From Luidia sarsii (Eukaryota; Echinodermata; Asteroidea; Paxillosida; Luidiidae), in the NCBI GenBank assembly GCA_949987565.1, contig OX465101.1:28794775-28858774 (forward strand): DNA of 64,000 nucleotides, written 5' to 3'. The first letter of the stretch is position 1; each line of letters begins with the position of its first letter. This document shows, one piece after another, positions 531-64,000 of this stretch. The translations under genes were made by a program, and so were the position numbers. The notes under the pieces were generated by a model. The model searched no databases. It was not told where the DNA came from and saw nothing but the letters and a program-made list of their open reading frames with translations.

Positions 531-1600
531 TCGCGGTCCAGACAAATATATGAATATGTATATTCTGCCCATGACCTAATAATCTAGAATGTCGTCAACT
601 CCCCAACCAACTTGCACCCTACAGAATGAATTGACGTAGCACCCAGAACAAGAAAGGTCCTAATGTCGGGATCGTATCCACCCACCGCCCCAACCCTCAT
701 CCCCGTCTGCCGAACTGTTATTCTTCCAGGAGTCGGTGTTGTTTCACCTGCCGTTCTCCAGAGCCACGGGTACGGGTTCGGGGAATGGGTTGCCGAACAA
801 AAAGGGTCCATTTGAGGGGAGGGGAGGGGAACTGATAGGGGGAGAGGGCGGGGTGTTTTGGGCGAGAGGAGAGAGGGAGAGCAGTTTTCTTGGGATTTTG
901 CCTGATGATGCACTGCTGAATGACCTGTGGCGTGCTGCGGTCGTGTCGTCTGTTACCAGCGTATAGCTCGTTGGGGCGAGATGGGGGGGGGGGAGGTGGG
1001 GGTGGGGGGTAGGGAAGAGGGGGGATGGGGAGAACCCCGGCTGTGTTTTTCCACTCTCCCGGACGCGCCGGGGACCCGCTATTTCTTGTTATTGGGGGAG
1101 CCATCGCCGCCAATACGAGCTCTCTGCAAACTCCCTCACTGCAACGGTACCCAACGTGCACGGGGAACGGTGAAAGCAAACGAGACGCGCTACGAATAGA
1201 GGATAGGAGTCCTTCACGCACAGCCCTTTCCTGCGCACATGTCGACTGAAAGTTGTGGGGTGAAAAAACATCTATCCGAAAATAAATGTTCTTACTAGAT
1301 TGATATTTGTTGTTTTAGTATCCATATTTTTGGTATTTGCTGATTGGCAACTCGATCTTTTTTTTACCGTATTCATCAGATACATCGATATCGATCTAGA
1401 CCAGTCTCAATCCCGGGACCACTTTGTACTGGCCTCGGTCTCGGACGTTCAGGTCCTCGGTCTCGATTCTTGAACCGTTGGGTCTCGACTGCTGTAATAC
1501 ACGCAATTTTGAGATTGTGCACTCCGCATAGACATCAGCCTATTGTTCTCAATGCCCCAGCGCTTTCATCAGGCATATACACCAGCGATAGTTGGAATCC
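531..1600. other. Unassigned low-copy DNA with a G-rich patch
   Basis: No gene was recognised. 820-860 and 980-1040 are G-rich on the + strand, with several runs of four or more G. 1400-1490 repeats the word CGGTCTCG several times. The overlapping short open frames on both strands show no recognisable domain. Confidence 0.5.
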
Positions 1601-1604
1601 AGCA

Positions 1605-1722
1605 GTCTTCTGACAACGGCCAGAGTACACACTACCCGAAACGTTCAGTAATACCGGCTCTTTTCAGAGCCATGCTCCTTCTTGAAAGAGAAGATATACA
1701 TGGTGTCACCGCAAACCTTCAA
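1605..1722 (+). repeat. Family H dispersed repeat with histone-type stem-loop (copy 1)
   Basis: This copy reads, in order, a CTGACAA word, a GCCAGAGTA stretch, CGAAACGTTCAGTAAT, the perfect hairpin GGCTCTTTTCAGAGCC at 1656-1671, a spacer, the purine-rich CTTGAAAGAGAAGAT, and the end motif TACATGGTGTCACCGCAAAC. The hairpin has the 6-bp stem and 4-nt TTTC loop known for replication-dependent histone mRNA 3' ends. The GAAAGA that follows resembles the sea urchin histone downstream element that pairs with U7 snRNA. No histone open frame lies upstream, so this is a repeat carrying the signal and not a histone gene. Other copies lie at 6545-6655, 26926-27075, 40861-41017, 61268-61420 and 63725-63845. 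Confidence 0.7.
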
Positions 1723-1729
1723 CTATGCC

Positions 1730-6544: not shown

Positions 6545-6655
6545 TTTCGGCCGGTTTATGCTCTATATACCGGCCGGAACGTCGAGTTACCACTCGGGTT
6601 CTTTTCAGAACCACACCTCTCCTCTAAGAGACCTTATTATATACATGGTGTCACC
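6545..6655 (+). repeat. Family H repeat with histone-type stem-loop (copy 2)
   Basis: The copy contains the hairpin GGTTCTTTTCAGAACC at 6597-6612, followed by ACACCTCTCCTCTAAGAGAC and the end motif TACATGGTGTCACCGCAA. Compared with copy 1 the third stem pair is T-A and not C-G, so both strands of the stem changed together. Upstream a CGGCCGGT/ACCGGCCG stem precedes GGAACGTCGAGTT, the position where other copies have GAAACGTCGAGTT. Confidence 0.7.
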
Positions 6656-6675
6656 GCAATCCCTTCTATAGTTTA

Positions 6676-6797
6676 AACTAACGCAATTGGCTTCACATCG
6701 CCAGTGTGGTTTATAATCGTATTGCAACTAGGGATACATTTGCATGCTTAGCAGATTTCGATACTATACAACGCTCCATGAAATTGGACCGTGGTCT
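6676..6797 (+). mobile_element. Family S MITE, right half only
   Basis: CTAACGCAATTGGCTTCACA through TGCTTAGCAGATTT to the end motif CTCCATGAAATTGGACC matches the right half of the full element at 13048-13291. The left half is replaced by family H copy 2, so this is a truncated or interrupted copy. Confidence 0.6.
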
Positions 6798-7395: not shown

Positions 7396-7747
7396 GCTAA
7401 AGTACAGCGTTCACTTAAAACACAAACTATAAGGGAGCTTTAATCACTTTGCACTCTAGGTGGTTCTACAACGGTGACATCGACGCATCGGGCCATCTGC
7501 GCAAGCGTCCACATTGAGCGTTCATCTGCCCGTGATTTCAGCAACGGTACCCACGCACGAGTCCGCCTTGTGCCGAAAATGACCACGAACTTTTGCCTTG
7601 CACAAAGCGAAAACCTTTTAGGGGCACGCGATTCTTCTTGCACAGAATGTGTCCCCTGGTGTACATCTGCATCCCACTCCCTTCCCTTTTTGTCCTTCCT
7701 CTGTCATTTGTGTAAGGGCTTTCCTTCCCCTGACTGTTTGTGAATGT

Positions 7748-7860
7748 CCTTGTCACTTTGCCTTTGCAACGGTCCTGCTAGGATCGAAACGTCAGGCCCT
7801 CTAACTTTTGAGATTTATGTATTGCAGGTCCCTTAAGTCAATGAGCAGTTTGCAACAGTT
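7748..7860 (+). mobile_element. Family G element, right half
   Basis: The core GGTCCTGCTAGGATCGAAAC then GTCAGGCCCTCTAA is followed by GAGATTTATG and the terminal GAGCAGTTTGCAAC. The end matches the inverted terminal repeat of the complete element at 8345-8630. The left end is missing. Confidence 0.65.
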
Positions 7861-7874
7861 TTTTGTTTATAATA

Positions 7875-7925: not shown

Positions 7926-8344
7926 TGATGCAGAGTGAACTGTTCACAGCAGTACCACCTTACGAGATGGCGTATGGCGTTTACCGGGAATATTTCACAC
8001 ATTGAAATTCCCCCACACAAACCTCCAAGTCTTGGAGATTCCTGTGGCGAGAGACAATCGTTCAGCAGCCATTGTGTAAAAACAAAAACTCGCGGCCGCC
8101 CTATATAGATCCCGTTTAAGCGCTCCTCGTCGCAAACATGTTTGTCTGGCGTGCCTGGGGGTGGGGATGGAGCGGTACCTCTGCCCCCCCCCCTCCCCAG
8201 GCTAATCACGTCACCTCAATCTCCCGTTACCACGCCCATTATGTCACGCTTGAGTCAACCTCGTTCTCCTGATCGATGGATCGCTCATCAGCCCCCGCCC
8301 ACGAATCCCGCCCTCGCTCACGGTGAGATTGAATACAAACAACT

Positions 8345-8630
8345 GTTGCAAACTGCTCACCGACTAAAATGACCTGCAATACAATGAATCTCAAAATGTT
8401 AGAGGGCCTGACGTTTCAATCGATCCTGGCAGAACCTTTTCTCAAAGGCAAGGTGAGATTTTTAAAGAACAATATTTCGACTAGATTTTTGAGGGCCTGA
8501 CGTTTCGATCCCAGCGGGACCTTTCTTGTAGGCTGAAGGGCATTGTGGTACCGCTGCGATCGAAACGTCGGCCACTCCTACCTCTGGAGATTTACATAGT
8601 GGTCATTTTAATCAGTAAGCTATTTGCAAC
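8345..8630. mobile_element. Family G element, complete copy with terminal inverted repeats
   Basis: The left end GTTGCAAACTGCTCACCGAC then TAAAATGACC pairs with the right end GGTCATTTTAATCAGTAAGC then TATTTGCAAC. Inside are two minus-oriented cores (GGGCCTGACGTTTCAATCGA at 8404 and GGGCCTGACGTTTCGATCCC at 8492) and one plus-oriented core (GATCGAAACGTCGGCC near 8559). The 286-bp element has no coding capacity. Related pieces occur at 7748, 11225, 20286, 25440, 50155 and 63865. Confidence 0.75.
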
Positions 8631-20189: not shown

Positions 20190-20285
20190 TATTCGATAGA
20201 GCGAATTGAAAGCAGCTCACAGAGGGCTATAACATCAAAATAAAAAAATATCAGAACGAAATACTGAAGAAAATACAAAAATAGT

Positions 20286-20392
20286 GTTGCCAACTACTCA
20301 CTGACTAAAATGACCTGCAATGCATAATCTCGAAAGTTAGAGGGCCTGACGTTTCGATCTTAGCAGGACCTTTCTCCTAGGATCGAAACGGG
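20286..20392 (-). mobile_element. Family G element, left half
   Basis: GTTGCCAACTACTCACTGAC then TAAAATGACC matches the terminal repeat of the 8345-8630 element. It is followed by GGGCCTGACGTTTCGATCTT then AGCAGGACC and the inverted CTAGGATCGAAACG. The other end is missing. Confidence 0.7.
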
Positions 20393-25439: not shown

Positions 25440-25525
25440 TATTGTTGCCTGCCTTTGAGAAAGGTCCTGCTAGGATCGAAACGTCAGGCCCACTAAATTT
25501 TGAGATATTGTTGTCACTGCAAGTG
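25440..25525 (+). repeat. Family G fragment
   Basis: CCTTTGAGAAAGGTCCTGCT, AGGATCGAAACGTCAGGCCC and TTTTGAGATATTG match the plus-oriented family G core. The terminal repeat is not preserved. Confidence 0.6.
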
Positions 25526-26925: not shown

Positions 26926-27075
26926 TTAATACAGGAAGGTTTGCGGTGACACCATGTATAAAGTCTCTTAAAGGAAGAGGTGTGGTCCTGGAAAAAACCT
27001 GAGTGGCAACTCGACGTTTCGACCAGTATGCTCTGGCCGTCATCAGGAGAAATCAGTTCCTTCTGATGACGGCCA
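26926..27075 (-). repeat. Family H repeat (copy 3), with hammerhead-like core
   Basis: The + strand starts AAGGTTTGCGGTGACACCAT (the outer motif). The degenerate hairpin position 26984-26999 reads GGTCCTGGAAAAAACC. Then come AACTCGACGTTTCGACCAGT and the inverted pair GGCCGTCATCAGGAG / CCTTCTGATGACGGCC at 27033-27072. Read on the minus strand it gives CTGATGA, a GGCCAG/CTGGTC helix and GAAACGTCGAGTT. Confidence 0.65.
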
Positions 27076-40835: not shown

Positions 40836-40860
40836 CATGCATGGTGGAAATGCCAAGTGC

Positions 40861-41017
40861 AAGGTTTGCGGTGACACCATGTATTAAAACACATTTAAGA
40901 CGGAGTGTGGCTCTGATTCTGAAAAGGGCGGATAACTCAACGTTTCGGGCCGTGTGAACTCTGCCCGGCAGACGTCTCTCTAGAAGAGATGTATTACATG
41001 GTGTCACCACAAACCTT
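40861..41017 (-). mobile_element. Family H element, complete by its inverted termini (copy 4)
   Basis: The left end AAGGTTTGCGGTGACACCAT then GTA and the right end TACATGGTGTCACCACAAAC then CTT are inverted repeats of 23 bp, so at least this copy has DNA-transposon-like termini. The hairpin site at 40909-40929 is disrupted by an extra GATTCT between GGCTCT and GAAAAGGGC. The GAAAC core is present as CAACGTTTCGGGCC on plus, with a GGGC/GCCC helix beside it. Confidence 0.7.
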
Positions 41018-41024
41018 CCACTCG

Positions 41025-44987: not shown

Positions 44988-45066
44988 TTGTCGATGTTTG
45001 AGTGAAGATTTCCCGAGAAGCACAGCATACATGATTCCATCATGACTATTTACAAACTGTGTAAAT

Positions 45067-45311
45067 GTGACCCGGAACAGCATAATGAGGAATAACCCCA
45101 TTTATGAGATTTGGAGGTTTTCTAATGATGTGAAAGAGTATACCATTAGCTTTCAAATGATATCAAAATATAATATCCTCAAAAAAATTCTGAAAATACA
45201 AAAAAAAGGAAATTGATTTGTAATCGAATTGTGGAGATACTTTAACTTCAGGCGTTGTTTACTCAAAAAGTGTTTTGTTTGGATATTTCTCATGTCGTTG
45301 TGCCGGGTCAC
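45067..45311 (-). mobile_element. Family P MITE inserted in family T, AAAT target duplication
   Basis: The ends are GTGACCCGGAACAGCATAAT and GACATGAG-type sequence closing with TGCCGGGTCAC. AAAT at 45063-45066 and 45312-45315 flanks the 245-bp element. Joining the flanks restores the family T sequence ACAGTTTG..AATTT seen at 48090, which supports a simple insertion. A second copy, in the opposite orientation, lies at 54955-55206. Confidence 0.8.
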
Positions 45312-45552
45312 AAATTAGAAGGAAATCTGTGAACATCGATGTTTGCCGATCTTCCCATTGTCGTATTGGGCCTTTAAGCGCGAAAAGTCACGATTCACAA
45401 GATCACGTTGCCAAAGCTCAAACGTCACGTTTGTTCCAAGCTAAGCAGAGTATAGTGGAATTCAAGTCAAAAGCAAATGGCATAATGTGCTATGGGAGTA
45501 ATTCTGTTTACATGCGGAAGACTTTACATGCTTTGCAGATTTTCACGCTTAA

Positions 45553-50154: not shown

Positions 50155-50290
50155 TCGTATAAAAATAGGAGGGCCAGACGTTTCGATATAAAAGGTCATG
50201 ATGCCAGGCCAGTATCGAAATGTCAGGACCTTCTAAATTTTGATATTCGCTTTTTTGGTCGTGTTAGTCAGTAAAAGATTGCAACATTTC
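50155..50290. mobile_element. Family G element, decayed
   Basis: GGGCCAGACGTTTCGATATA and the inverted AGTATCGAAATGTCAGGACC form the core pair. The right end GTTAGTCAGTAAAAGATTGC then AAC matches the family G terminal repeat. The left terminal repeat is not recognisable. Confidence 0.65.
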
Positions 50291-50294
50291 TGTA

Positions 50295-51375
50295 TATCAT
50301 TAGGCCTACTGTGTTATCTGGGCGACGCGGTCGCTCGTCCTCAGTACTGTGGTGGAATAGTTTTGTACGGCATCCTTAGACTATAGAAGTTCAGAGCAAG
50401 TTTGTATCACCCGCCTAAAGAATCTATAGCTTCCCAACTGTTATCTCCACCGATGCACGAGAAATAGCCTATAGGGACCACCGAAAAACAGCCTGTCCGA
50501 CATCGTGCAGCACTCTATCGTTGCATGCAAGCTACACTTTCCAATCGTTCGTCTTGGGTGAGCGAGGCACGTCGGAAGTCCCGTCCCCACGCCGGCGAAC
50601 CTCGCCTAGACTATAGAAGACCGTTGTGCTTGGCCATCATGCAAAATGATACCGTAGATCTGGATCTGGTCCTGATCACCCTACTCGCGTACACACATAG
50701 CCTACTCATTTTGGTATCCTTGTGGAGATGTTGCTTTGTTCTCGTGCACTATACAACTGTGTGAGAAACGATGTTTTATCAAAATTGGCAACGTTGGCAC
50801 CGTCGTGCTGATGGAAATAGCGCCGCCTTTGACAAAATGCAGAAGGCAGACTGGGGCCTTCTCGGCCGTGTTGGTGATCCGCTAATAAAGTCGAGCTTCG
50901 ATCCAATAGGCCTATACAGACCGTATTATACAATTCCCACAAGCTGTTACAAAAAGCGTCAATATTTTAGTCACCGTATCTAATGACCGTTCCCCCGCCA
51001 GCCCTTTTCTCCGTTTCCCCCATTGTTGCTCAGAGCAGACCTGTCAGGTGTATTATTGAATACTTCCTTGCGTTTTCCCATCCGTCTTTTTCCCCCAAGC
51101 GATACCTGCAGCTTGAAGAGAGGTAGGAAGGAAAAGAGAGAGTCGACGGCGGCAGACCGTGTTACGGTATGTGTGGCAGTGGCGCAGAGAATGCACGGTG
51201 CTTGGCCGACGATCCCCTCGGGCATGCACGGTCGTTTGTCATTAATGTTGTCGAGCTCCTCGATTTCCCTAGCTCCTCCCACCCCCTCCCCCTCCTCCTC
51301 TCCTGCGAGACGGATATTGATATTATGACGGGATTTACGGCTCGGGACTACGGCAGGAGATAGGCATATACTCAC
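50295..51375. other. Unassigned DNA with a dispersed repeat fragment
   Basis: 50715-50790 (TTGCTTTGTTCTCGTGCACT, GTGAGAAACGATGTTTTA) matches 4335-4385. I recognise no gene in the remainder. Confidence 0.4.
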
Positions 51376-54945: not shown

Positions 54946-54954
54946 TACATATAT

Positions 54955-55206
54955 TTGACCCGGCACAACGACATGAGGAATATCCCACTAAAACACTTTT
55001 TGAGTAAACAACGCCTGAAGTTAAAGTATCTTCACAATTCGATTACAAATCATTTTTTGTTTGTTTGGTATTTTCGGAAATTTTAAGTATTAGAGGATAT
55101 TATATTTTAATATCATTTGAAAGCTAATGGTATACTCTTTCACATCGTTAGAAAACCTCAAAATCTCAAAAGTGGGGTTATTCCTCATTATGCTGTGCCG
55201 GGTCGC
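54955..55206 (+). mobile_element. Family P MITE, ATAT target duplication
   Basis: The left end TTGACCCGGCACAACGACAT then GAGGAATAT pairs with the right end ATTCCTCATTATGCTGTGCC then GGGTCGC. ATAT at 54951-54954 and 55207-55210 flanks the 252-bp element. The sequence is the reverse complement of 45067-45311 with modest divergence. Both copies show 4-bp, A/T-rich target duplications. I cannot assign a superfamily. Confidence 0.8.
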
Positions 55207-55319
55207 ATATATCGACATGCTGTAGTGCGTGCGTGCGTGTCAATCTGCAAGGGTGGTACTTGACAGTGATCTGTAAGATTAGCGCGCATCGCTTGCGTCA
55301 AACCACGAGGTATATTTGT

Positions 55320-60518: not shown

Positions 60519-60592
60519 CTTCCCTCTTTTCAAAGCCCCACTCCGTCTCCAAAGAGATGCGTCACCGCAAACCTTCGACTCAACAATAATAC
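60519..60592 (+). repeat. Family H fragment with decayed stem-loop
   Basis: CTTCCCTCTTTTCAAAGCCC corresponds to the hairpin region with a broken stem. CCACTCCGTCTCCAAAGAGA matches the downstream purine-rich part, and GCGTCACCGCAAACCTTCGA is the end motif. Confidence 0.5.
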
Positions 60593-60599
60593 ATTACAA

Positions 60600-61255
60600 A
60601 TTGTGACCAATGTTGCACTTACTTTTGAGCCAGTGTCGATCAGAGGTTTAACCAGTAGGTCTATCATTATCAGACACTAAACACCAAACTGATTGTCTTG
60701 ATCAGAACCGATTACGAACTTCCCTCATTTTTTTCGGATAAGACCTGGACAAGGTACTGGGCGGGAGATTTTAAACCCAACGTTCGACTGTAATTTGTAG
60801 GCTACGATTTTTCGAGCCCGGGATGTGTTCTATCCTGCATGGCCGGGACCGACACTATCGTACAGTGGAAGACATTCAAACCTGCCCATGCATGCCGCGT
60901 GCTAAATTAGATTATTACACGTGGCTCCAGCCTTGGCCTTATCTCGGCCGAAAAGGGATTAAAGCGTTGACACGCTGCGTCACAACGATCCGTCAAACAC
61001 GTCCTACATTGCCCTAATTAAGGTCGCATTCATGTATCCAGCTGGTCGAGTTTCATTTGGCGAGGGTGGGTTTTGTTGTTAACCAGAAATGTTTTCATGT
61101 TGTGGTGATTTTCGCAGTTTTTCTCTGAGCAGGTACGGGGGCTTATGTTCCCATCCATGGGGATTTAGATCAGATCTCTCTATTTAAGTAGGACTTTGGT
61201 GGCGTCAAAAATACGCTTCATAGACTAAATACAAACCAAATAAGCAAACAAGAGA
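60600..61255. other. Unassigned low-copy DNA
   Basis: I see no gene or repeat that I can support. Confidence 0.35.
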
Positions 61256-61267
61256 ATTGTGAAAATG

Positions 61268-61420
61268 AGACTTGAAGGTTTTCATGGCAGGAGTAATGCG
61301 TTTTGCGGCGACACCATTTAAAGTTATCTTTTGTGATTATGTGTGGTTCTGAAAAGAACCGGAGGAACTTGACGTTTCGCATAGTACATACTCTGTTCGT
61401 CTTCAGGAGAATTGTGAATT
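61268..61420 (-). repeat. Family H repeat with histone-type stem-loop (copy 5)
   Basis: GACTTGAAGGTTTTCATGGC and TTTTGCGGCGACACCATTTA give the outer end. The perfect hairpin GGTTCTGAAAAGAACC lies at 61345-61360 (minus strand GGTTCTTTTCAGAACC), and CTTGACGTTTCGCATAGTAC follows. On the minus strand the hairpin is followed by ACACATAATCACAAAAGATA, where CAAAAGAT resembles a histone downstream element. CTGAAGA occurs 5' of GCGAAACGTC on that strand. Confidence 0.7.
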
Positions 61421-63724: not shown

Positions 63725-63845
63725 TTGTGGAAATACCAATTTAGAATAGGAGGTTTGCGATGTCACCATGTATATCACCTCTTAAAAAGAGTACTGCGTG
63801 GCTCTGAAAAGAGCCGGTAACTCAAGGTTTTGGGTATAGTGTGTA
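63725..63845 (-). repeat. Family H repeat with histone-type stem-loop (copy 6)
   Basis: GGAGGTTTGCGATGTCACCA gives the outer end and the perfect hairpin GGCTCTGAAAAGAGCC lies at 63800-63815 (minus strand GGCTCTTTTCAGAGCC). The following GGTAACTCAAGGTTTTGGGT corresponds to the GAAAC core, which is decayed here. On the minus strand the sequence after the hairpin is ACGCAGTACTCTTTTTAAGA. Confidence 0.7.
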
Positions 63846-63864
63846 TACTCAAATACGTAACAAT

Positions 63865-64000
63865 TTTGCAAACTGCTTACTGAACTAAAATGACCAAAGT
63901 ATAAATAATAACCAATTAAGAGGGCATGACGTTTCGATCCCAGCATGACCTCTCCCAAAGTCTATTCCTGCTTTTGAGATAAGTCCTGCTAGCATGGAAA
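63865..64000 (-). mobile_element. Family G element, cut by the window end
   Basis: TTTTGCAAACTGCTTACTGA then ACTAAAATGACC is the terminal repeat. GGGCATGACGTTTCGATCCC then AGCATGACC is the minus-oriented core, and TTTTGAGATAAGTCCTGCTA begins the opposite core. The other end lies beyond 64000. Confidence 0.7.

Follow-up and report, generated by a model that had tools for sequence, protein, structure and literature searches.

The explanation towards which we lean, if only slightly, is that the pseudo-LTR (pLTR) of a Penelope-like element (PLE) family in the genome of Luidia sarsii took up a complete histone 3′-end signal and uses it to make a non-polyadenylated, S-phase-biased message. The repeat in question has the anatomy and the ends of a pLTR-like unit and carries an AAGAGA motif at histone spacing, and the same genome holds matches to the SLBP RNA-binding domain. 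PLE-pLTR identity and the reality of a two-part histone signal we regard, taken jointly, as very probable; use of the signal for 3′-end formation we would put at about an even chance.

The stem-loop and the repeat that carries it

In the window, the 64,000-nt stretch of DNA analysed here, the GGYTCTTTTCAGARCC hairpin is found at four sites: GGCTCTTTTCAGAGCC at 1656..1671 (plus strand) and 63800..63815 (minus strand), both of subfamily C, and GGTTCTTTTCAGAACC at 6597..6612 (plus strand, subfamily A) and 61345..61360 (minus strand, subfamily B). All are exact matches, and the 61345 copy also has an Rfam Histone3 match at 61320-61365. The subfamilies, A, B, C and D, were named by hand from the flanks and the stem type. 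The initial annotation had given the position, strand and letters of each hairpin exactly, and it was right that the four share one position in a single dispersed repeat family, upstream of a ATGGTGTCACCGCAAACC-type tail; the Penelope-like pLTR anatomy described below is an addition to that account. Could such a hairpin be a chance product? Dinucleotide shuffles of the window gave 0 matches to GGYTCTTTTCAGARCC in 100, and the 16-mer is present genome-wide in 15,628 exact copies (7,912 + 7,716) in 470.9 Mb, real histone genes counted in, against 0 copies of its reversed control in the same 470.9 Mb. A chance hairpin is thereby ruled out.

The sample examined closely amounts to 264 kb; besides the window it comprises 20 stretches, each 10 kb long and picked for a perfect hairpin. 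In it we counted 37 perfect hairpins and a further 12 that differ by one mismatch. By hand tally, the third pair of the perfect hairpins is C-G in 13, T-A in 22, C..A in one and T..G in one; the mixed C..A form accounts for 283 of the 15,628 genome-wide copies. The window, which was not selected for the hairpin, shows seven family copies. The hairpin is perfect in four of these and has three mismatches in each of the other three, which were recognised by profile match at 26926..27065 (minus strand, decayed stem-loop GGTTTTTTCCAGGACC), 40838..41023 (minus strand, CGCCCTTTTCAGAATC) and 60522..60583 (plus strand, CCCTCTTTTCAAAGCC).

The core shared among 35 copies runs from ~60 nt before to ~100 nt after the hairpin start. 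In its 5′ part the element comprises, in some copies, a TATA-like stretch and AGTTGGAATCCAGCAGTC, followed by CTGANGACG, a stem of 6-7 pairs and GAAACGTCGAG; the 3′ part consists of the hairpin, ACAC, an HDE-like element, ATGGTGTCACCGCAAACC and, in some copies, further CACCATGCAAACCTTCAAGTCT. Copies are about 115-155 nt long, somewhat shorter than the pLTRs of Adineta vaga. Their 3′ end falls at one of two places separated by ~30 nt, either 52-56 or 76-90 nt beyond the hairpin. The Adineta vaga pLTRs are described as units of ~180-220 bp that occur in inverted copies with duplications of 8-10 bp; one member of an inverted pair may carry a 31-bp tail, a TATA box with initiator is present, and the junctions are mostly head-to-head and palindromic (PMC3846280). 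In our sample, five of ten head-to-head inverted pairs have an 8- or 12-bp direct repeat, with one short end and one long end each; four of these repeats are clear and that of L021 is one of three candidates, and the other five pairs have no direct repeat or nothing at the expected ends. Duplications of 8-13 bp around the 21 single copies are clear in five, plausible in three, inconsistent in three and absent in ten. The clear cases include the 61345 window copy as well as L012 and L015, both of which also hold a piece of an inverted copy on the 5′ side.

On our best reading of this anatomy, the hairpin repeat appears to be built like solo and head-to-head PLE pLTRs. A DNA transposon or MITE whose inverted terminal repeats contain the hairpin by accident would account for the frequency of the head-to-head pairs, some of which have target-site duplications. 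However, some single copies have duplications of their own, a pair has the ~30-nt tail at one end and lacks it at the other, and the layout resembles that of a GIY-YIG retroelement of the same genome, and we consider a transposon origin very improbable.

The four window copies illustrate this structure. The first, delimited by the extent of profile matches at 1595..1725 (plus strand), has its hammerhead-like stem module, CTGACAACG..GAAACGTT, upstream of the hairpin at 1610..1645 (plus strand; hand count and alignment) and an HDE-like AAGAGA 14 nt past the stem-loop at 1686..1691 (plus strand; spacing analysis). The second, at 6545..6683 (plus strand; profile match and alignment), has its upstream stem (window 6545-6596) replaced by a different paired stem, GGCCGGT..ACCGGCC, and an HDE-like AAGAGA 13 nt past the stem-loop at 6626..6631 (plus strand; spacing analysis). 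Duplication analysis identifies the third as a solo pLTR-like copy with the long 3′ end, that is, with the tail, at 61264..61406 (minus strand). It is bounded by a 12-bp target-site duplication, TTCACAATTCTC, at 61407..61418 on the 5′ side and 61252..61263 on the 3′ side, and its upstream module occupies 61371..61406 (minus strand; alignment and duplication analysis), so that the copy starts at the module's first core base, the first base of CTGAAGA. The fourth, a profile match at 63746..63815 (minus strand), has mostly lost its 5′ part. A 'GAAACGT' stem module lies upstream of the hairpin in three of the four copies and is mostly lost in this last one.

Several other features were seen along the way. 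A 29-bp minisatellite at L019:6987-7844, beside an inverted hairpin pair, resembles a multiplied tail unit of the family (CAAACCTTCCACTTGGTACTCCCACCATG) and looks like a case of a pLTR tail seeding a satellite. The stop-to-stop frames of the window are mostly low-complexity, as far as the frame list goes. From 56971 to about 60.2 kb the window holds a 27-bp minisatellite of ~115 steps with several frames open (HANETRDLT repeat). The arms of an inverted repeat at 45062-45315 / 54951-55211 measure 122 and 134 nt, with complementarity of 93% and 85%, and lie ~9.6-9.9 kb apart.

Penelope-like relatives and the hammerhead-like module

A coding relative, PLE-A, is represented by L049 (G000:C1:20916500-20920500), found among the 150 scored of 1,354 candidate GIY-YIG matches in the genome. 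Its 943-residue open frame has a GIY-YIG domain above the Pfam cut-off and a reverse transcriptase match at E 1.3e-5, below the Pfam cut-off. Many genome matches share L049's 29.8 bits, so PLE-A was probably active recently. The PLE-A pLTR has a similar module, CTTTGAGAAAGGTCCTGCTAGGATCGAAACGTCAGG, in which the CTGANGA is degenerate, and a tail; it occurs in many solo copies within the 264 kb and lacks the histone hairpin. Solo PLE-A pLTR fragments lie in the window at 7745-7870, 8333-8456, 20273-20376, 25449-25506, 50208-50299 and 63859-63960, the last of them upstream of the fourth hairpin copy. Since PLE-A combines a similar module and tail with no hairpin, the pLTR of the hairpin family seems to be of a sister type, with a histone signal added.

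The resemblance extends to the pLTRs of known elements (Adineta vaga Pen2, Anolis PAc), which share with the hairpin family short pLTRs, an optional ~31-bp tail, inverted head-to-head copies, short target-site duplications, a hammerhead-like module and solo copies. A PLE with a histone 3′-end signal did not turn up among the papers listed, and for the hairpin family a coding partner with the hairpin was not seen. The 3′ regions of five of the 150 scored GIY-YIG matches (L049-L053), all PLE-A, contain no coding PLE with the hairpin; by hand comparison, no hairpin is listed within 5 kb of the four GIY-YIG matches listed for C1 below 2.9 Mb; and the PLE-A protein used as a query against the 264 kb found two PLE-A remnants only, a search that a divergent PLE could escape.

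The upstream stem sits in a hammerhead-like CTGANGA..GAAACGTC frame. Compared with the hammerhead core (CUGANGA, stem II, GAAA, UH), 20 of 29 copies have at least 10 of the 11 core letters, and stem II is preceded by one extra base. By hand count, the stretch that opens with stem II and closes with GTC measures 26 nt in subfamilies A and B; in the Anolis PLE, the ORF of the hammerhead begins at stem II and the cut site lies 26 nt past the start codon (PMC11167929). Minimal type I hammerhead variants are reported from PLEs in passages of PMC7229834. The Rfam hammerhead models gave no match at gathering score in the window or the 14 scanned loci, nor in one copy at E up to 10. Retrozymes and other non-autonomous retroelements that bear hammerheads are likewise small non-coding repeats around such a module, but the hairpin repeat has no Rfam hammerhead match and one extra base before stem II.

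Histone-type signal and stem covariation

How closely does the repeat match the histone genes of its own genome? A search in which the best 150 of 253 candidates were scored showed that the histone genes form a tandem cluster and scattered genes; the cluster lies at G000:C18:6790790-6974565 and on C52, with units of ~4.2 kb. The 21 hairpins of twenty H3 loci all read GGCTCTTTTCAGAGCC; they occur in five contexts, 17 of the 21 being identical. Compared with the replication-dependent histone mRNA 3′ end (RF00032, SLBP/U7), the repeat has the same 16-nt stem-loop, identical in its C-G form, but its T-A form at pair 3 is missing from the 21 histone-locus hairpins inspected, and its hairpins lie outside histone genes, in a mobile repeat of thousands of copies. 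The real H3 genes share the layout of stem-loop, ACAC and AAGAGA, for example GGCTCTTTTCAGAGCC ACACATTTTCAAAAAAGAGA. Their AAGAGA starts 14 or 15 nt past the stem in 20 of 21 cases, and the remaining one is cut by the locus end. In the repeats it starts 13, 14 or 16 nt past the stem in 26 of the 37 perfect hairpins, the random rate for a start 10-18 nt away being 0.5%, and ACAC adjoins the stem in 25 of the 37. As an outside control, the 66 sites in IMG/VR contigs that match the 16-mer included none with AAGAGA at histone spacing and none with adjoining ACAC, from which we conclude that many copies of the repeat carry both cis parts. Against our preferred explanation we count the 11 of 37 copies in which AAGAGA is missing at 13-16 nt; in one of these it starts 2 nt past the stem and in ten it is missing within the 40 nt searched. 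Within the window it is present at 13-16 nt in two of the four copies and missing there in two. We also count against that explanation that neither a coding element with the hairpin nor U7 RNA turned up in the searches described here, that copies extend beyond the histone cut, that 10 of the 21 single copies gave no duplication and 3 gave inconsistent ones, that Rfam recognises no hammerhead, and that the two window fragments folded alone are no more stable than shuffles, the 61345 copy even losing the hairpin in its lowest-energy fold.

The Rfam Histone3 model (RF00032) reaches its gathering score at one of the four window sites (61320-61365, minus strand, 37.6 bits), the other three scoring below the threshold, and at seven sites in the 14 loci scanned of the 20 10-kb loci. 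In the copies as displayed, histone coding sequence does not lie upstream of the 37 hairpins, that position being taken by a hammerhead-like module, by an inverted copy or by other DNA. A histone retropseudogene is ruled out by the copies inspected, which are without histone-like sequence upstream and have a conserved non-histone tail downstream. The SLBP RNA-binding domain gives two matches at one locus, the second of which holds internal stop codons, as across an intron. U7 RNA was not found in the genome by Rfam RF00066 or by one pattern, the Rfam answer being no proof of absence and the search tool's own controls giving no hit anywhere. The initial annotation's proposal of a histone-style 3′-end signal is thus strengthened by AAGAGA at histone spacing, by the layout shared with H3 genes and by the SLBP domain matches, and it loses its argument from compensatory changes.

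That argument held that paired changes preserve the hairpin stem. The C-G/T-A switch at the third pair is real. In an alignment of 29 copies, biased towards the hairpin as 20 of them have it perfect, 21 copies have T-A and 6 have C-G at pair 3, and the hairpin varies on both sides at this pair only, in those 6 copies, all of subfamily C. A double change confined to one subfamily calls for one event and no more. Stem types track subfamilies, the pattern that the initial annotation had itself set against a functional reading, and imperfect copies differ in the stem or the loop by single uncompensated changes; that compensatory changes recurred in the hairpin is unsupported. The stem that does covary is the upstream one. 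It has two-sided changes at four of four outer-helix pairs and one of three inner-helix pairs in the same alignment; taking the whole structure, 90% of cells pair, compared with 29-47% when slid, cells with double changes number 34 against 13.7 in shuffles, and the covariation score lies above all 500 shuffles. The number of pairs with double changes (6 vs 4.7) and of pair types (17 vs 16.8) does not exceed the shuffles. RNAalifold unaided recovers only the hairpin. When fragments were folded alone, the hairpin was in the best fold of four of five, the lowest-energy fold of the 61345 copy being without it. Stability relative to shuffles gave z of -3.1, -2.3 and -2.5 for three fetched copies and of -1.0 and -1.3 for two window copies, which are not more stable.

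These data bear on two alternatives. The pLTR might have picked up a histone 3′ end once and copied it ever since as an unused part of the repeat. The subfamily pattern of the C-G/T-A switch and the uncompensated changes in imperfect copies would fit such a history, as would inserted copies that extend beyond the cut. However, subfamilies A, B, C and D, whose upstream stems and flanks differ widely, all retain the hairpin and the HDE-like spacing, and pair 3 takes its T-A form in 21 and its C-G form in 6 of the 29 copies; an idle signal seems to us unlikely. Alternatively, the hairpin could be kept to bind SLBP or a protein of the element itself, in transport, nuclear re-entry or template recognition, rather than for 3′ cleavage. 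SLBP domain matches in the genome, the position of the hairpin within the RNA that templates insertion and the covariation of the neighbouring stem all speak for binding of this kind. It leaves AAGAGA at histone spacing and ACAC unexplained, and we hold it to be rather improbable.

Proposed use of the signal and its implications

What would a histone 3′-end signal do for a PLE? In the mechanism that we favour, the stretch of the pLTR that separates the hammerhead-like module from the 3′ tail gained the stem-loop, ACAC and, downstream of them, a purine-rich element. A coding donor of the form pLTR-ORF-pLTR would exist or have existed. Processing of its downstream pLTR by SLBP/U7 would yield a message that is not polyadenylated and is biased towards S phase, and its upstream pLTR, near the transcription start, would be read through. 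The distal poly(A) signal alone is used in retroviral LTRs, which offers an analogy for the distal pLTR. The short copies may have arisen as by-products when reverse transcription began within the tail of the unprocessed upstream pLTR. Copies contain sequence past the histone cut, and the RNAs that templated them were therefore not cut there. This is consistent with a pLTR-ORF-pLTR transcript that is read through at the start-proximal pLTR and finished at the distal hairpin, and initiation in the proximal tail would yield short solo copies such as those seen. For the Anolis PLE, reverse transcription in vitro begins internally on the template, at two sites that flank the tail (PMC11167929). 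We tentatively suggest, in the fullest form of the idea, that a PLE lineage hijacked the histone 3′-end pathway, its RNA being finished by SLBP/U7 rather than by polyadenylation and thereby tied to S phase, and that solo pLTRs spread more than 15,000 hairpins.

In animals, the combination of histone stem-loop and HDE is, to our knowledge, considered almost confined to replication-dependent histone genes. Among the papers listed by searches of the open-licence literature, titles and abstract openings yielded no transposable element with a histone stem-loop or HDE. A passage on a tunicate genome reports 326 loci with the histone stem-loop and is itself silent on repeats (PMC8704543). Annotators should be aware that Rfam Histone3 matches can be repeats. 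Potential histone-type cleavage sites occur here at ~1 per 30 kb, many with the downstream element, which, if our explanation is true, raises the question of how host transcripts tolerate so many of them. A mobile element that carries both signal parts in thousands of copies would then represent a selfish use of a cell-cycle-tied mRNA pathway, and would illustrate one way for a retroelement to tie its message to S phase although that message lacks a poly(A) tail.
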